Position numbers and translations under genes: made by a program. Positions 2,835-8,102 of a DNA stretch of 64,000 nucleotides are shown here, one piece after another. Each line of letters opens with the position of its first letter. Within the stretch, counting starts at the first letter, position 1. The notes under the pieces were generated by a model. That model worked only from the letters and a program-made list of their open reading frames with translations, was not told the DNA's origin and did not search any database. Origin of the DNA: Bradyrhizobium daqingense (GTDB lineage Bacteria > Pseudomonadota > Alphaproteobacteria > Rhizobiales > Xanthobacteraceae); contig NZ_CP088014.1 in the NCBI RefSeq assembly GCF_021044685.1, positions 2,962,001 through 3,026,000 on the forward strand, read 5' to 3'.

Positions 2835-3887
2835 ATGCGGGTATTAATCGCGACTGACGCCTGGCATCCGCAGGTCAACGGCGTGGTGCGGACGCTGACC
2901 TCGCTGGCGAACGCGACCAAGGCCCTCGACGTCGAGATCGACTTCCTCACCCCGGACGGCTTTAGGTCCTGGCCGCTGCCGACCTATCCCGGCCTGCGCT
3001 TCGCGCTGCCTTCGGCGAAGGAGATCGCGTGGCGGATCGAGAAGGCGGCCCCGGACGCGCTGCACATCGCCACCGAAGGGCCGATCGGCTGGGCCGCGCG
3101 GGCCTATTGCCGCCGCAACCGGCTCGCTTTCACCACCTCCTATACGACGCGCTTCCCCGAATATGTCTCGGTGCGGACCGGCATCCCCGCGAGCGTCGGC
3201 TATGCCGTGCTGCGCCACTTCCACGATGCCGCCGCGATGACGATGGTGGCGACGCCTTCGCTGCGGCAGGAATTGTCCGAGCGCGGCTTCAAGCGGCTCG
3301 GCTTCTGGACCCGCGGCGTCAACACCGAGCTATTCCATCCCGATGCTCCGGCCCAGCTCGACCTGCCGCGCCCGATCTTCATGACGATGGGGCGCGTTGC
3401 GGTGGAGAAGAATCTCGACGCGTTCCTCTCGCTCGATCTGCCCGGCACGAAGGTCGTCGTCGGCGACGGCCCGCAGAAGGCGGCGCTCGAAAAGAAATAT
3501 CCCGCCGCCGTCTTCCTCGGCGAGAAGAAGGGCGCGGATCTCACCGCGCATCTCGCCGCGGCCGACGTGTTCGTGTTTCCGAGCCTGACCGACACTTTTG
3601 GCGTGGTGCAGCTCGAAGCGCTCGCCTGCGGCACGCCGGTTGCGGCGTTCCCGGTGACGGGTCCGAAGGACGTCATCGCCGATCATCCGATCGGCGCGAT
3701 CGACCATGATCTGCGCACCGCGTGCCTGCGTGCGCTCACGATGTCGCGCGCGACCTGCCGCAACTTCGCGCTGGAGCGCTCTTGGGAGAACAGCGCGCGC
3801 CAGTTCGTCGGCAATCTCACTTCACTTCAGCCCAGCCGCGCCTTGCGCGCCTCGCCACGCATGGCGCGGCGGCCGGTCCGCGGTTGA
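2835..3887 (+). CDS. GT4-type glycosyltransferase (GT-B fold)
   Basis: This 350-aa protein starts MRVLIATDAWHPQVNGVVRT, the usual opening of GT4 enzymes with the sugar- or lipid-acceptor loop. An N-terminal acceptor domain is followed by a C-terminal nucleotide-sugar domain: FMTMGRVAVEKNLDAFL near 178 and the conserved TFGVVQLEALACGTPVAA near 254, which carries the E of the EX7E-like motif. Homologues include mannosyl- and glucosyltransferases acting on lipids. It is followed after 33 bases by a methyltransferase in the same direction, so an operon is likely. Substrate unknown; a lipid acceptor is suggested by the neighbours only. Confidence 0.85.
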   Translation: MRVLIATDAWHPQVNGVVRTLTSLANATKALDVEIDFLTPDGFRSWPLPTYPGLRFALPSAKEIAWRIEKAAPDALHIATEGPIGWAARAYCRRNRLAFTTSYTTRFPEYVSVRTGIPASVGYAVLRHFHDAAAMTMVATPSLRQELSERGFKRLGFWTRGVNTELFHPDAPAQLDLPRPIFMTMGRVAVEKNLDAFLSLDLPGTKVVVGDGPQKAALEKKYPAAVFLGEKKGADLTAHLAAADVFVFPSLTDTFGVVQLEALACGTPVAAFPVTGPKDVIADHPIGAIDHDLRTACLRALTMSRATCRNFALERSWENSARQFVGNLTSLQPSRALRASPRMARRPVRG

Positions 3888-3920
3888 TCTCCCGTTTGAA
3901 CCACAGCGAGAACCTCATCG

Positions 3921-4610
3921 ATGGCTAAGATCATGAACTTCGACGGTACCCAGCAGCTCGATCTCACCCGTGGCACGGTCGAGCAGGCCTATGACCGCTG
4001 GGCGCCGGTCTACGATCTCGTGTTCGGGGGCGTGTTCGCCAAGGGTCGGCAGGCGGCGATCGCGGCGACCAACAAGATCGGCGGTCGCGTGCTCGAGGTC
4101 GGCGTCGGCACCGGCATCTCGCTGCCGCTCTATGCGCCGAACCTGCGCATCTTCGGCACCGACATTTCGGAAGCGATGCTGGACAAGGCGCGTCGCCGCG
4201 TTGCCGAGGGCAATCTGAAGAACGTCGAGGGCCTCGCGGTGATGGACGCCGAGAAGCTCGAATTCCCGGACAATTCCTTCGACGTCGTGATGGCGCAATA
4301 TGTCGTGACCGCCGTGCCCAACCCGGAAAAGGCGCTCGACGAGTTCGCGCGCGTGCTGCGCCCGGGCGGCGAACTGATCATCCTCACCCGCGTCAGCGCC
4401 GATACCGGCATGCGCCGCTTCATCGAGCAGAAGCTCCAGCCGGTGGTGCGTCCGCTCGGCTTCCGCACCGCCGAGTTCGCCTGGTCGCGTTACGCCAAGT
4501 GGCTTGCCGGCGCGCGCGGCATGGAGCTCGCCGAGCGCCGCCTGATCCCGCCGCTCGGGCACTTCTCGCTGGTGCGCTTCCGCAAGGTCGACGTCGCCAA
4601 AGCGGCCTGA
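3921..4610 (+). CDS. class I SAM-dependent methyltransferase, PmtA/UbiE-like
   Basis: This 229-aa enzyme has the SAM-binding motif I VLEVGVGTGISLPLY at 57-71 and the acidic GTDIS at 79-83. The motif FDVVMAQYVVTAVPNPEKAL lies near 120, and VLRPGGELIILTR near 145. The opening AYDRWAPVYDLVFGGVFAKG is typical of phosphatidylethanolamine N-methyltransferases of the Rhodobacter type and of UbiE-like enzymes. Bradyrhizobia are known to carry several such Pmt homologues for phosphatidylcholine synthesis. The position beside glycosyltransferase, aminotransferase and decarboxylase genes supports a lipid substrate, but a quinone or other small molecule cannot be excluded. Confidence 0.8.
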   Translation: MAKIMNFDGTQQLDLTRGTVEQAYDRWAPVYDLVFGGVFAKGRQAAIAATNKIGGRVLEVGVGTGISLPLYAPNLRIFGTDISEAMLDKARRRVAEGNLKNVEGLAVMDAEKLEFPDNSFDVVMAQYVVTAVPNPEKALDEFARVLRPGGELIILTRVSADTGMRRFIEQKLQPVVRPLGFRTAEFAWSRYAKWLAGARGMELAERRLIPPLGHFSLVRFRKVDVAKAA

Positions 4611-4732
4611 GTTTACGCGTCCCTCGTGCGTCATCCCGCCGCTGCGCATCGTCACATGACAAAATGATGATGTCACACGGCCTACATCGAATCCCTGTAA
4701 ATCCTGAACCCGAAAGCATTTTGGGGGAGAGC

Positions 4733-5392
4733 ATGATCAAGAATTACCTCGAGCAGCTGCGGATCCAGCGCTGGGACGACCATCGCTACTATCACCACAG
4801 CCGCATCAATCAGAGCCTGCACTTCGTCAGCGCGCTGAGCTTCCTCTTCGCCTATGTCTGGCTCTTCATCGACCCCGTGATCTCGGCGCTGGTCGGCTGG
4901 CTGGTCTCGATGACCTCGCGCCAGGCCGGTCACTTCTTCTTCGAGCCGCACGATTACGACCACATCAACCAGGCGACGCACGAGTACAAGGAAGAGATCA
5001 AGGTCGGTTACAACCTGCAGCGCAAGGTGGTGCTGATGGCGATCTGGGCACTCTCGCCGCTGGTGCTGTTCGTCGATCCCACGCTGTTCGGCCTGTTTAC
5101 CCCCTGGGCTTCGGCGACCGACTTCATGCGTCAGACGGCCAAGATCTGGCTCTTCATCGGCGGCGGCGGTCTTCTGTTCCGCACCGTGCATCTGTTCTTC
5201 ATCCGCGATGTCGAGACCGGCCTCGTCTGGATGACCAAGATCCTGACCGACCCGTTCCATGATCTGATGCTCTATCGCGGAGCTCCGCTGGCCCTGATGC
5301 GCGGCGAATTGATGGACCCCGGCCTGCACCTCAACCCCGAGCACACGCTGGGCCTCGTCGGCGAGCCCACGCTCGAAGAGCAGCACGCCTGA
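4733..5392 (+). CDS. conserved multi-pass membrane protein of unknown function
   Basis: This 219-aa protein begins at the ATG preceded by TTGGGGGAGAGC, a strong ribosome-binding site; the open frame extends upstream into the methyltransferase but has no better start. Hydrophobic segments are near 32-60 (paired), 103-125 and 138-158. His-rich motifs stand out: DDHRYYHHSRINQSLHF at 16-32, then RQAGHFFFEPHDYDH at 63-77. The pattern of R-x-N-x-x-LHF followed by GHFFFE recalls DUF962/Mpo1-like membrane dioxygenases that bind iron through His, but the match is partial. It may belong to the same operon as the two genes upstream. Confidence 0.75.
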   Translation: MIKNYLEQLRIQRWDDHRYYHHSRINQSLHFVSALSFLFAYVWLFIDPVISALVGWLVSMTSRQAGHFFFEPHDYDHINQATHEYKEEIKVGYNLQRKVVLMAIWALSPLVLFVDPTLFGLFTPWASATDFMRQTAKIWLFIGGGGLLFRTVHLFFIRDVETGLVWMTKILTDPFHDLMLYRGAPLALMRGELMDPGLHLNPEHTLGLVGEPTLEEQHA

Positions 5393-5432
5393 GCGCGCTG
5401 CGCATATCAGATCCTCCGATGTTGATTGGCTA

Positions 5433-5521
5433 CGTCATGCCCGGCCTTGTGCCGGGCATCCACGTCTTGGAGCAATCGTGTGGAGACGCGTGGATGGCCG
5501 GGACAAGCCGGGCCATGACGG
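5433..5521. repeat. palindromic intergenic repeat, family R2, copy 1
   Basis: It begins CGTCATGCCCGGCCTTGTGC and ends ACAAGCCGGGCCATGACGG, with GCATCCACG and CGTGGATGGC as inner inverted arms. Copies lie at 8814-8850 (half) and 26377-26464. It sits between convergent genes. Confidence 0.8.
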
Positions 5522-5538
5522 TATTGCAGAAATCAGCC

Positions 5539-7203
5539 TCAGCGCCCGAAGCGCTTGGCCAGCATCTCTTTCAGGATCTGACGCTTGATGTTCTTGTTGG
5601 TGAGCACACCGTCGTGCCACCAGAAGCCGTCAGCCTTCATCTTCTCGGCGGCACGAACGAAGCGTTCGGCGACCTCGGTGAAGTCGGCGTCGGTGTAGTT
5701 GAGGCTGAAGATCAGCCGTCCGGTGCCGACCCAGCTCAGCGCCAGACCTTCGGCGCGCAGGTAGTATTGCAGCATCCAATTGTAGCGGGACGGCGTGGTG
5801 TATTTCACCGTCCAGATCGAGGAGAAATTCGCGAAGCGCACCGGCAGGCCGGCATCGGTCATCATCCGGTTGAGCTTTTCGACGCGGCCGTTCCAGGTCT
5901 CGTCGAGGCCCTTATAGACCGCGCGGAAGTTGGGGCTGGCGAGACGGCTCAGGAACTCGTCCATCGCCGTCATGACGTAAGGGTGCGAGTTGAAGGTGCC
6001 GCGGGCGAAGCAGATGTCGGCGGGGCGATCGTCGCGGAAACGGCGCATCAACTCGCGTTTGCCGCAGACGACGCCGACCGGCAGGCCGCCAGCGAGGCTC
6101 TTGCCGTAGGTGACCATGTCGGCGCGCACGCCGAAATAGTCTTGGGCGCCGCCGGCGGCAAGGCGGAAGCCGACGAACACCTCGTCGAAGATCAGCACGA
6201 TGCCGCGCTCGGTGCAGACTTCACGCAGCTTCTTGAGCCACTCGGTGTAGGCCGCACGATCAAAATTGCCGCCGCGGGAGGAATCGACCAGCGAGGAATC
6301 ACCGGGCGCGTTGCCGTTCGGATGCAGGCCCTGGAGCGGGTTGACCAGCACGCAGGCGATGTCCTTGCGCGTCTTCAGGACGTGCAACGTCTTCTCCGAC
6401 ATCTCGGCGAGCGTGTAGGTCTCGTGCGCGGGGATGGGATTGCCGACGCCGGGCTGCACGTCGCCCCACCAGCCGTGATAGGCCCCCGCAAAGCGGACGA
6501 GATGGCTGCGCCTGGTGTGGTAGCGCGCCAGCCGTACCGTCTGCATCACGGCCTCGGTGCCGGACATGTGGAACGAGACTTCGTCGAGGCCGGAGATCTG
6601 GCGGAGCCGCTGCACGTTGTCCAGAATGACGGGGTGGTAGGGGCCGAGCACGGGACCCAGCGCATGCGCGCGCTTCTCGGCGCCCTCGATGCACTCCTTG
6701 TAGAAGTCGTTGCCGAAGATGTTGACGCCGTAGGATCCGGTGAGATCGTAGAAGCTGTTGCCGTCGACATCGGTGACGGTGACGCCGCTGGACGATTCCA
6801 TGAAGGTCGAGGTGCCCAGATGCTCGCGGACGAGACGCGAGAACTGGAACGGCACGCGGTAGCTCTCGGTGAAGTTCAGGTCGGAGATCGTCTCCGCCGC
6901 CTGCTTCGTCATCGCGCGCCCCTTGGGGTAGCGCTCGGCGTAGAGCCTGGCGAGGCGGAAGAACGCGTCCTTGCGTTGCATCACGACGTTGGCGGGCGCG
7001 CCGTCACAGCCGAAATATTTGTCGCCCTCGAACTCGTAGAACGGCAGCAGTTTTGCAACCCGCCGCGACATCTTGGAGTGCCCGGCGAGCGAGCGATGCT
7101 TGGCGCGGGAGAGTTCGAACCGCGCCTTGAGCTTCGGGAAGACGGCGGCAGCGGAGGCTGCGGCGGCCACGGACATCGAGAGAATCGGGAGTGTCGTTTC
7201 CAT
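5539..7203 (-). CDS. class III PLP-dependent aminotransferase, glutamate-1-semialdehyde aminomutase-like
   Basis: This 554-aa protein is longer than usual GSA aminomutases (about 430 aa). The extra part is about 120 N-terminal residues: a weakly hydrophobic start ([14 protein letters not shown]), then a basic region and FEGDKYFGCDGAPANVV. The fold-type I core follows: SGTEAVMQTVRLAR near 214, AYHGWWGD at 241-248, FDEVFVGFR with D340, and the PLP lysine K368 in TYGKSLAGG. It lies 35 bases from, and divergent to, the decarboxylase homologue at 7239, so both share a control region. It is unlikely to be HemL because of the extension and context. A role in making an amino-lipid or amino head group is inference. 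Confidence 0.85.
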   Translation of the reverse strand: METTLPILSMSVAAAASAAAVFPKLKARFELSRAKHRSLAGHSKMSRRVAKLLPFYEFEGDKYFGCDGAPANVVMQRKDAFFRLARLYAERYPKGRAMTKQAAETISDLNFTESYRVPFQFSRLVREHLGTSTFMESSSGVTVTDVDGNSFYDLTGSYGVNIFGNDFYKECIEGAEKRAHALGPVLGPYHPVILDNVQRLRQISGLDEVSFHMSGTEAVMQTVRLARYHTRRSHLVRFAGAYHGWWGDVQPGVGNPIPAHETYTLAEMSEKTLHVLKTRKDIACVLVNPLQGLHPNGNAPGDSSLVDSSRGGNFDRAAYTEWLKKLREVCTERGIVLIFDEVFVGFRLAAGGAQDYFGVRADMVTYGKSLAGGLPVGVVCGKRELMRRFRDDRPADICFARGTFNSHPYVMTAMDEFLSRLASPNFRAVYKGLDETWNGRVEKLNRMMTDAGLPVRFANFSSIWTVKYTTPSRYNWMLQYYLRAEGLALSWVGTGRLIFSLNYTDADFTEVAERFVRAAEKMKADGFWWHDGVLTNKNIKRQILKEMLAKRFGR

Positions 7204-7238
7204 GACAACAAGCGCTAACCCTGCGAGCTGACAGATTC

Positions 7239-8102
7239 ATGACAGTCAAAGCCCTCATCGCCTCTTTCACCCAGCAGGAAGACCTCAACTTCCTGTTGAC
7301 CAACCGTATCCCCCGCGCCGCCCTGACCCGCTTCATGGGCTGGTTCTCCAAGATCGAGAATCCCATCGTCCGGGATTTCTCGATCGCGCTGTGGAAGCTA
7401 TTCTCCGACCTCGATCTGTCGGAGGCGCGCAAGACGCATTTCAGCAGTCTGCACGACTGCTTCACCCGGGAGCTGAAGCCGGGCCTGCGCCCCTTTGATC
7501 CCGACCCCGCCATTGTGGCCAGCCCGTCCGACGGCATTGTCGGAGCTCACGGCAAGATCGCCGACACCGAGCTGTTTCAGGTCAAGGGCGCGCCGTACTC
7601 GCTGCTCGATCTGCTCGGCGATTCGGCTCTGGTCGATCAGCACCGCAACGGATCCTTCGTCACGTTGCGGCTGACCTCGAGCATGTATCATCGCTTCCAT
7701 GCACCCTATGACGCGCATATCGAACGCGTGACGCTGATCCATGGCGACGTCTGGAACGTCAACCCGATCGCGCTGAAGCGCGTCGAGCGTCTGTTCTGCA
7801 AGAACGAGCGCGCGGTGATCCGCACGCATCTGGCGACCGGCGAGCCCGTGACGCTCGTGCCGGTTGCCGCCATCCTGGTCGCGAGCATCCGGTTGCACTT
7901 CCTCGACATGGTGCTGAACGAGCAAACACGCGGCCCGGTCAATTTTCCCTGCGACGTCAACGTGACCAAGGGGGAAGAGCTCGGCTGGTTCGAGCACGGC
8001 TCGACCATCATCATCCTGGCGCCTGGCGATTTCACCTTCTGCGACGGCATCGCCGAGGGCACGCGCATTCGCGCAGGTCAAGCGCTGTTGAAGCGAAACT
8101 AG
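7239..8102 (+). CDS. psd: phosphatidylserine decarboxylase family protein (pyruvoyl enzyme)
   Basis: This 287-aa protein has the Psd layout. ASPSDGIVGAHGKI lies at 94-107 with D98, and MYHRFHAPYDAHI at 149-161 with the conserved His residues. The self-cleavage site is EHGST at 252-256, where G254-S255 would be split to give the pyruvoyl group; the usual LGST is changed to HGST. Psd converts phosphatidylserine to phosphatidylethanolamine at the inner membrane. Rhizobia normally also have a shorter Psd next to pssA, so this may be a second decarboxylase with another substrate. The divergent aminotransferase supports that view. The gene symbol is by family. Confidence 0.85.
   Translation: MTVKALIASFTQQEDLNFLLTNRIPRAALTRFMGWFSKIENPIVRDFSIALWKLFSDLDLSEARKTHFSSLHDCFTRELKPGLRPFDPDPAIVASPSDGIVGAHGKIADTELFQVKGAPYSLLDLLGDSALVDQHRNGSFVTLRLTSSMYHRFHAPYDAHIERVTLIHGDVWNVNPIALKRVERLFCKNERAVIRTHLATGEPVTLVPVAAILVASIRLHFLDMVLNEQTRGPVNFPCDVNVTKGEELGWFEHGSTIIILAPGDFTFCDGIAEGTRIRAGQALLKRN

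Follow-up and report, generated by a model that had tools for sequence, protein, structure and literature searches.

A predicted Pho-regulated lipid head-group module in Bradyrhizobium daqingense with an aminotransferase, an HGST-type Psd paralogue and an Mpo1-like membrane protein

Gene content of the locus

The stretch analyzed (the window) comprises 64,000 nucleotides of Bradyrhizobium daqingense, positions 2962001–3026000 of an 8.0-Mb single-contig genome. It holds a cluster of five genes, encoding a GT4 glycosyltransferase, a PmtA-like methyltransferase, an Mpo1-like membrane protein, a class III pyridoxal phosphate (PLP) aminotransferase (AT) and a paralogue of the phosphatidylserine decarboxylase (Psd) family with HGST at its cleavage site (HGST-Psd). 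A first-pass annotation had proposed these frames as a possible amino-lipid cluster. All five were confirmed as real, with the order, strands and positions it had given, as was the gap of 35 bases (7204–7238) between the divergent AT and Psd genes. As judged by sequence comparison, the tight core of the cluster is AT, an extra HGST-Psd and a distant Mpo1-like protein. A Pho box, a feature new beyond that annotation, lies at 7228–7245. Feature positions are given in Table 1.

Table 1. Features of the cluster, with positions counted from the first nucleotide of the window
Feature	Position	Strand	Length or source
GT4 glycosyltransferase	2835..3887	+	350 aa
PmtA-like phospholipid N-methyltransferase, probably R-type	3921..4610	+	229 aa
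Mpo1-like polytopic membrane protein, core gene	4733..5392	+	219 aa
Class III PLP aminotransferase (AT), core gene	5539..7203	-	554 aa
AT predicted N-terminal hydrophobic (membrane-anchoring) helix, residues 6-34	7102..7188	-	AF2 model
AT lysine K368, predicted PLP Schiff base, motif TYGKSLAGG	6100..6102	-	
Pho box CTGTCATGAATCTGTCAG, 13/14 consensus positions, overlaps psd start codon	7228..7245	-	
Psd paralogue with HGST cleavage site, core gene	7239..8102	+	287 aa
HGST self-cleavage motif; S255 is the predicted pyruvoyl residue	7995..8006	+	

Linkage and co-occurrence of the core genes

Full-length AT relatives were found in 20 of 299 Pseudomonadota genomes, the sample also used for the HGST-Psd, Mpo1-like and BtaA counts. 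They came from six families and were 54–100% identical to the window AT; below them, the next matches fell to ~34% identity. HGST-Psd (E ≤ 1e-60) and Mpo1-like (E ≤ 0.001) were likewise each present in 20 genomes, and all three in 19. The chance that two sets of 20 in 299 share at least 19 members is 8e-28, uncorrected for phylogeny. The two misfits belong to one genus and are fragmentary assemblies: G128 (230 contigs) had AT alone, on a short contig, and G263 (190 contigs) had Psd and Mpo1-like without AT.

Gene neighborhoods around AT were compared in 18 AT-positive genomes and the window (10–20 kb each) and in 80 named loci, the latter being the best 80 of 594 and weighted to Bradyrhizobium. 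The contig of G128 was only 4.4 kb, and this genome was excluded from later locus counts. The 99 loci, window included, were examined with profiles built from cluster members; two rows (L036 and L083) are one locus, so 98 are distinct. Psd lay within 8 kb of AT in all 98, and Mpo1-like in 97, the exception (L073) being a 3.4-kb contig; the core trio was thus together in 97 of 98. Within the same distance, some GT4 was present in 89 and a PmtA-like gene in 76 (67 of 68 Nitrobacteraceae-group loci vs. 9 of 30 others). As the presence of these two varies by lineage, they were treated as accessory. Linkage was seen well outside near-identical strains, which speaks against the refutation that the first-pass annotation had named (no conserved linkage beyond such strains).

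Two architectures were observed. The commoner has divergent AT and Psd genes with a convergent Mpo1-like gene. In the second, found in five loci of one family, AT, a GT4 protein of ~890–940 aa, Psd and Mpo1-like all run in the same direction. The usual order was also seen on a Sphingomonas parapaucimobilis plasmid (Psd, named asd; AT; hypothetical protein; methyltransferase). Among the best 80 of 594 named loci, the closest (AT identity 91–95%) were from Bradyrhizobium, except one labelled Frankia. Counted in the Nitrobacteraceae group (68 loci) are two records with other labels, Frankia (L056; AT 93% identical to that of the window) and 'bacterium' (L112; 81%). Proteobacterial-type clusters were carried by the records labelled Frankia sp. 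RB7 (L056) and Chitinophaga pinensis (L123; AT identity 71%), which are probably mislabelled or contaminated assemblies.

A second sample comprised 377 genomes of the order to which the window belongs. Mpo1-like was present in 16, of which 14 were of the window's genus, and it was found in every genome of that genus in the sample (14/14). Three genomes gave two Mpo1-like matches. In G550 (C11:705258-705850) both came from a single broken frame, as adjacent pieces; for G507 and G602, the additional match was a paralogue with no core partners within the 20 kb fetched. Both solo paralogues (L239:9493-10167 and L240:9631-10362) have the motif QRFDDYR and lack AT and Psd nearby, and one of them adjoins an aminotransferase of another kind, which scored 49 bits against the AT profile.

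Pho boxes at the cluster

Sites were scored against the Pho-box consensus CTGTCATNNNNCTGTCAT over 14 positions. The box between AT and Psd (CTGTCATGAATCTGTCAG) matched 13 and was the best in the window, where the runner-up matched 11; no 13/14 site occurred in ten Markov-shuffled windows. All 68 distinct Nitrobacteraceae-group loci have it in an unchanged position with respect to psd, with scores of 12 or 13 (63 loci) or 11 (five loci), although these loci are related and the boxes are not independent events. Given a promoter box of this type and score, the cluster is predicted to belong to the Pho regulon and to be controlled by PhoB. A weaker Pho-box-like site lies upstream of the window GT4 (2702–2719, 11/14). 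Upstream of GT4 a box of 13/14 was present in 12 of 67 distinct Nitrobacteraceae-group loci; for the window no GT4 promoter box is claimed, the score being only 11.

In the whole genome, 14 sites matched with at most one mismatch, vs. 1 for the reversed pattern. Boxes adjoined PstS, PhnD (one gene further on), DUF47 with Pit (box on the opposite strand), and, at 6.59 Mb, a PlcP-like phosphoesterase followed by a GT4.

Outside the Nitrobacteraceae group, a site of at least 12 was found upstream of Mpo1-like in 6 of 30 loci. The dinucleotide-shuffle expectation was 0.04 loci on average (maximum 2), a score of 12 was reached by 9 of 1500 250-bp windows drawn at random from these loci, and the mean score was 10.5 vs. 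8.7. Two of the six positives (L128 and L130) share one identical site. This enrichment is partly post hoc, as the AT/Psd, GT4, PmtA-like and Mpo1-like promoters were inspected first.

Two exact matches elsewhere in the genome are recorded as side observations. One is directly upstream of an Orn/Lys/Arg decarboxylase (L147, ~3.974 Mb), an unexpected candidate member of the Pho regulon, and the other is just upstream of a CYTH-CHAD protein (L149, ~6.250 Mb). At the remaining seven of the 13 other sites no clear phosphate gene was seen, and two of these (L157 and L158) had no frame under the filter used.

The HGST-Psd

The window Psd scored 186 bits against PF02666 (cut-off 22) and 166 bits against TIGR00163 (cut-off 111.75). 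HGST in place of LGST, noticed in the first-pass annotation for this one protein, proved general to the cluster Psds (99 of 99 rows, 98 distinct loci); the LGST signature of the Psd family is thus absent, with G, S and T of the motif retained. The subfamily to which the protein belongs is annotated as archaetidylserine decarboxylase. In the available text of PMC7952604, E. coli Psd residues D90, H144, H147 and S254 are given maturation or catalytic roles, Y137 and S166 contact phosphate, and L252 lies on the acyl surface. Alignment to the E. coli enzyme placed D98, H151, H154 and S255 at the first four positions, invariant in 16 rows, and gave the substitutions Y137 to R, D142 to M, S166 to N and L252 to H. 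All 99 rows had the substrate-side R and M (pattern search, 93; inspection, six). In a quick-method tree the cluster Psds formed one clade on a long branch, a placement limited because other Psd types contributed just seven rows and the genome's own short canonical Psd (L002) was left out.

That second Psd excludes HGST-Psd as the sole housekeeping enzyme; had HGST-Psd been the genome's one Psd, with normal activity, this would have counted against the pathway first proposed. Two or three Psd matches were found in 19 of 20 AT-positive genomes, the second match in G096 being a 22-bit fragment only; G128 had one, on a contig other than that of AT. HGST-Psd is therefore generally an extra copy.

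It is unlikely that HGST-Psd is an ordinary phosphatidylserine decarboxylase which, with the PmtA-like enzyme, boosts or recycles phosphatidylethanolamine (PE) and phosphatidylcholine (PC) under stress, leaving AT and Mpo1-like with a separate job in acyl-chain metabolism or turnover. The TIGR00163 score and the retained equivalents of D90, H144, H147 and S254 are as this explanation would have them, and the methyltransferase is closest to a solved PE N-methyltransferase (8ys9). However, HGST-Psd occurred without AT only once in 299 genomes, in a 78%-complete assembly, and 19 of the 20 AT-positive genomes have a further Psd match, though in G096 only the fragment. The constant R and M on the substrate side and the distinct long-branched clade (in a small sample) also argue against it, and extra phospholipid synthesis under a Pho box would be odd.

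The aminotransferase and the Mpo1-like protein

AT scored 170.8 bits against TIGR00713, far below the cut-off of 527, in agreement with the earlier remark that it is not a normal HemL; a simple HemL assignment was rejected on this score. By sequence and fold, the nearest solved relatives were the mycosubtilin AMT domain (27% identity in structural alignment), then glutamate-1-semialdehyde (GSA) aminomutases and beta-transaminases. K368 was invariant in 17 aligned rows, and the TYGKSLAGG motif was found by pattern in 98 of 99 rows, the last having one changed neighbor. The 120-residue extension that had been noted is present, and can now be described as an N-terminal part starting with a hydrophobic helix. 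In the AT model (mean predicted local distance difference test score, pLDDT, of 79) this helix spans residues 6–34, with pLDDT ~48–81. Hydropathy over 19 residues, from the first methionine, exceeded 1.4 in 90 of 94 scored rows (5 of 99 rows were unscored), and the helix is predicted to be a membrane anchor.

The third core protein had been called an unknown His-rich membrane protein. The His-rich and membrane parts of this description stand, and the protein appears to be distantly Mpo1-like (PF06127). Matches were weak, at 20.4 bits for the window, 20.5 for L039 and 24.7 for L050 (gathering score 24). H17, H21, H30, H67 and E71 were invariant across twenty rows, which also share a C-terminal motif, K169-I-x-T-D-P. 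The model was essentially all-helical (mean pLDDT 85).

A role of the trio in modifying acyl chains is less likely still. Here, Mpo1-like would alpha-oxidize a 2-hydroxy acyl chain and AT would aminate a beta-keto or aldehyde acyl group. The yeast Mpo1 protein is a dioxygenase of alpha-oxidation (PMC9624242, available text), and the nearest solved structure to AT, the AMT domain, fits as well. Such a scheme nevertheless gives the Psd-family decarboxylase, which every one of the 98 distinct loci has, nothing to do, and no carrier-protein gene was noticed among the recurring neighbors, where none was sought by profile.

Interpretation of the cluster

Conserved synteny without one pathway, with several Pho-regulated membrane genes co-localized, is very improbable: GT4 and PmtA-like do differ in presence from lineage to lineage (89 and 76 of the 98 loci), but the three core genes were gained and lost together over the 299 genomes (8e-28, phylogeny uncorrected) and were kept in two different gene orders.

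Bacteria replace phospholipids by phosphorus-free lipids when phosphate is exhausted. Of the shared pathway first suggested for all five genes, the part that concerns the core trio, at a minimum, has good support: the trio is linked, co-occurs in 19 genomes and has Pho boxes. On the sequence evidence, there is one pathway, which is membrane-located and phosphate-controlled. Because the genes are inherited as a block in several proteobacterial groups and carry a phosphate-starvation DNA switch, a replacement membrane lipid is probably made. The lipid head-group role also proposed is suggested by family membership, the predicted AT anchor and the neighbors (GT4, PmtA-like, OlsF, OlsB-like, LplT and PlcP-like); that its product is an amino lipid we infer. 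We are fairly confident in describing the cluster as a Pho-regulated lipid head-group module. With more reserve, we lean toward PhoB-controlled membrane-lipid remodeling in phosphate starvation that makes an amine-bearing lipid head group.

The chemistry proposed follows that of the protein families. Under phosphate scarcity, PhoB would turn the cluster on. GT4 would glycosylate diacylglycerol released from phospholipids (elsewhere in the genome lies a PlcP-like gene that has a Pho box of its own), yielding a glycolipid in parallel with the core-trio pathway. In that pathway, the Mpo1-like membrane protein may act on a lipid as an Fe(II) oxygenase, the membrane-anchored AT would aminate the carbonyl left by this step, and HGST-Psd, via its pyruvoyl group, would turn an amino-acid head group into a primary amine by decarboxylation. 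In loci that have it (the window and most alphaproteobacterial loci), the PmtA-like enzyme would then N-methylate that amine. The particular order of these steps is tentative and on the doubtful side.

Several observations weigh against PhoB-controlled synthesis of such a head group. The window Mpo1-like protein is under the Pfam cut-off and a fold search with its model returned no solved fold at E ≤ 0.001, which makes an oxygenase role for it guesswork; paralogues of Mpo1-like standing alone also exist in two Bradyrhizobium-group genomes. R by itself at the Y137 position is found in a GGST-type Psd as well, and Arg is reported there in 15% of Psds (PMC7952604, available text). The Pho box shares bases with the start codon of psd, so that half its length is coding sequence too; from its end to the annotated AT start there are ~25 bases, a short distance for a promoter. 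Outside the Nitrobacteraceae group, no clear Pho box was seen at the AT-Psd promoter, and 24 of 30 loci had no site of at least 12 upstream of Mpo1-like.

If the preferred reading of amine-bearing head-group synthesis under PhoB is right, the cluster looks like an uncharacterized branch of the phosphate-starvation lipid response. It is a concrete locus for missing head-group chemistry, and a role is suggested for a Psd subfamily annotated as archaetidylserine decarboxylase. Most carriers are without BtaA (20 of 20 in the 299-genome sample, 14 of 16 in the order sample). A bolder and somewhat unlikely extension is that, besides BtaAB and OlsBA/OlsF, bacteria have in the trio a third widespread means of making a zwitterionic amino or betaine lipid free of phosphorus. 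Amination and decarboxylation of a head group linked to diacylglycerol would then yield this lipid, a phosphate-free stand-in for PE, and for PC where PmtA-like is present. A product like diacylglyceryl carboxyhydroxymethylcholine (DGCC) was considered and dropped, as evidence was lacking. No description of the cluster was found in the open-licence literature, as judged by titles and the starts of abstracts.

Relation to known lipid systems

The core proteins resemble known enzymes with clear differences. The cluster Psd shares the profile family and the catalytic His, Asp and Ser of canonical Psd (LGST, E. coli type), but has HGST and R, M and N at Y137, D142 and S166, and travels with AT and Mpo1-like. 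AT has the class III PLP fold and lysine motif of the AMT domain, HemL and beta-transaminases; unlike them, it has an N-terminal part of ~120–130 residues with a predicted membrane helix. The weak PF06127 match to yeast Mpo1 (a 2-hydroxy fatty acid dioxygenase) covers the His-rich core, whereas the window protein continues for over 100 residues more at its C-terminus, where K169, D173 and P174 are among the invariant positions.

BtaB is the methyltransferase of the betaine-lipid pathway to diacylglyceryl trimethylhomoserine (DGTS). As predicted for the cluster, that pathway is Pho-regulated and its phosphorus-free amino lipid is finished by an N-methyltransferase; sinorhizobial btaA and btaB are PhoB-regulated (PMC3972451, available text). 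BtaA (PF11899) was above cut-off in 23 of the 299 genomes and in none of the 20 AT-positive ones (overlap 0, P = 0.19), nor was it present in the window genome. In a hand-counted alphaproteobacterial subset (86 genomes, 22 with BtaA, 11 with AT) overlap was again 0 (P = 0.03). In the order sample, BtaA was present in 135 of 377 genomes and overlapped with Mpo1-like in 2 of 16 (5.7 expected, P = 0.036, phylogeny uncorrected); 14 of these 16 are one genus. This pattern is suggestive: it fits a cluster that is an alternative to BtaAB, and does not prove it.

PlcP-Agt lipid remodeling under phosphate starvation is known from Pseudomonas aeruginosa PA3219/PA3218/PA0842 (PMC8528852, available text). 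The window cluster shares with it an Agt-like GT4 and predicted Pho-box control through one and the same consensus (CTGTCATNNNNCTGTCAT), and PlcP-like genes lie near several loci. It differs in having the AT–Psd–Mpo1-like core, of which that text mentions no member, and in that the PlcP-like–GT4 pair of this genome is a separate locus, at 6.59 Mb. No PlcP-like phosphoesterase was found among the annotated genes of the window cluster.

Accessory and neighboring genes

The window GT4 and that of the PlcP-like–GT4 pair share 60% identity; the window enzyme is likely an Agt-like diacylglycerol glycosyltransferase. The best solved relative of the methyltransferase was 8ys9_A (154 bits, E = 4e-44, residues 19–220). 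Against the equivalog NF045882, by its short name a Legionella model, it scored 156 bits (cut-off 390). It is probably an R-type PmtA as cited in PMC12139422 (available text).

Neighbors were compared over ~10 kb in 32 loci, 30 from outside Nitrobacteraceae and two from Nitrobacter. PlcP-like phosphoesterases recurred in six, LplT-like transporters in five, and UDP-glucose dehydrogenase-like genes and an OlsB-like acyltransferase in four each. OlsF-type genes were near AT in L044 and L047, with a related frame in L122. One example per type was scanned with profiles: OlsF (L047, 816 bits, NCBIfam cut-off 620) and LplT (L039, 511 bits, cut-off 297) passed, and the OlsB-like protein (L130) fell below its NCBIfam cut-off. 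The phosphoesterases matched general models only, so the name PlcP-like rests on context and recall. In the five loci of the second architecture (L043, L044, L047, L049 and L050), the ~890–940 aa protein has its GT4 domain at the C-terminus; PHP-like motifs were seen by eye in its N-terminal part, which Pfam did not recognize.

A 57% paralogue of the window methyltransferase exists. B. japonicum PmtX2-4 are silent under standard conditions (PMC3972451, available text); if the window gene is one of them, Pho regulation could explain this silence.

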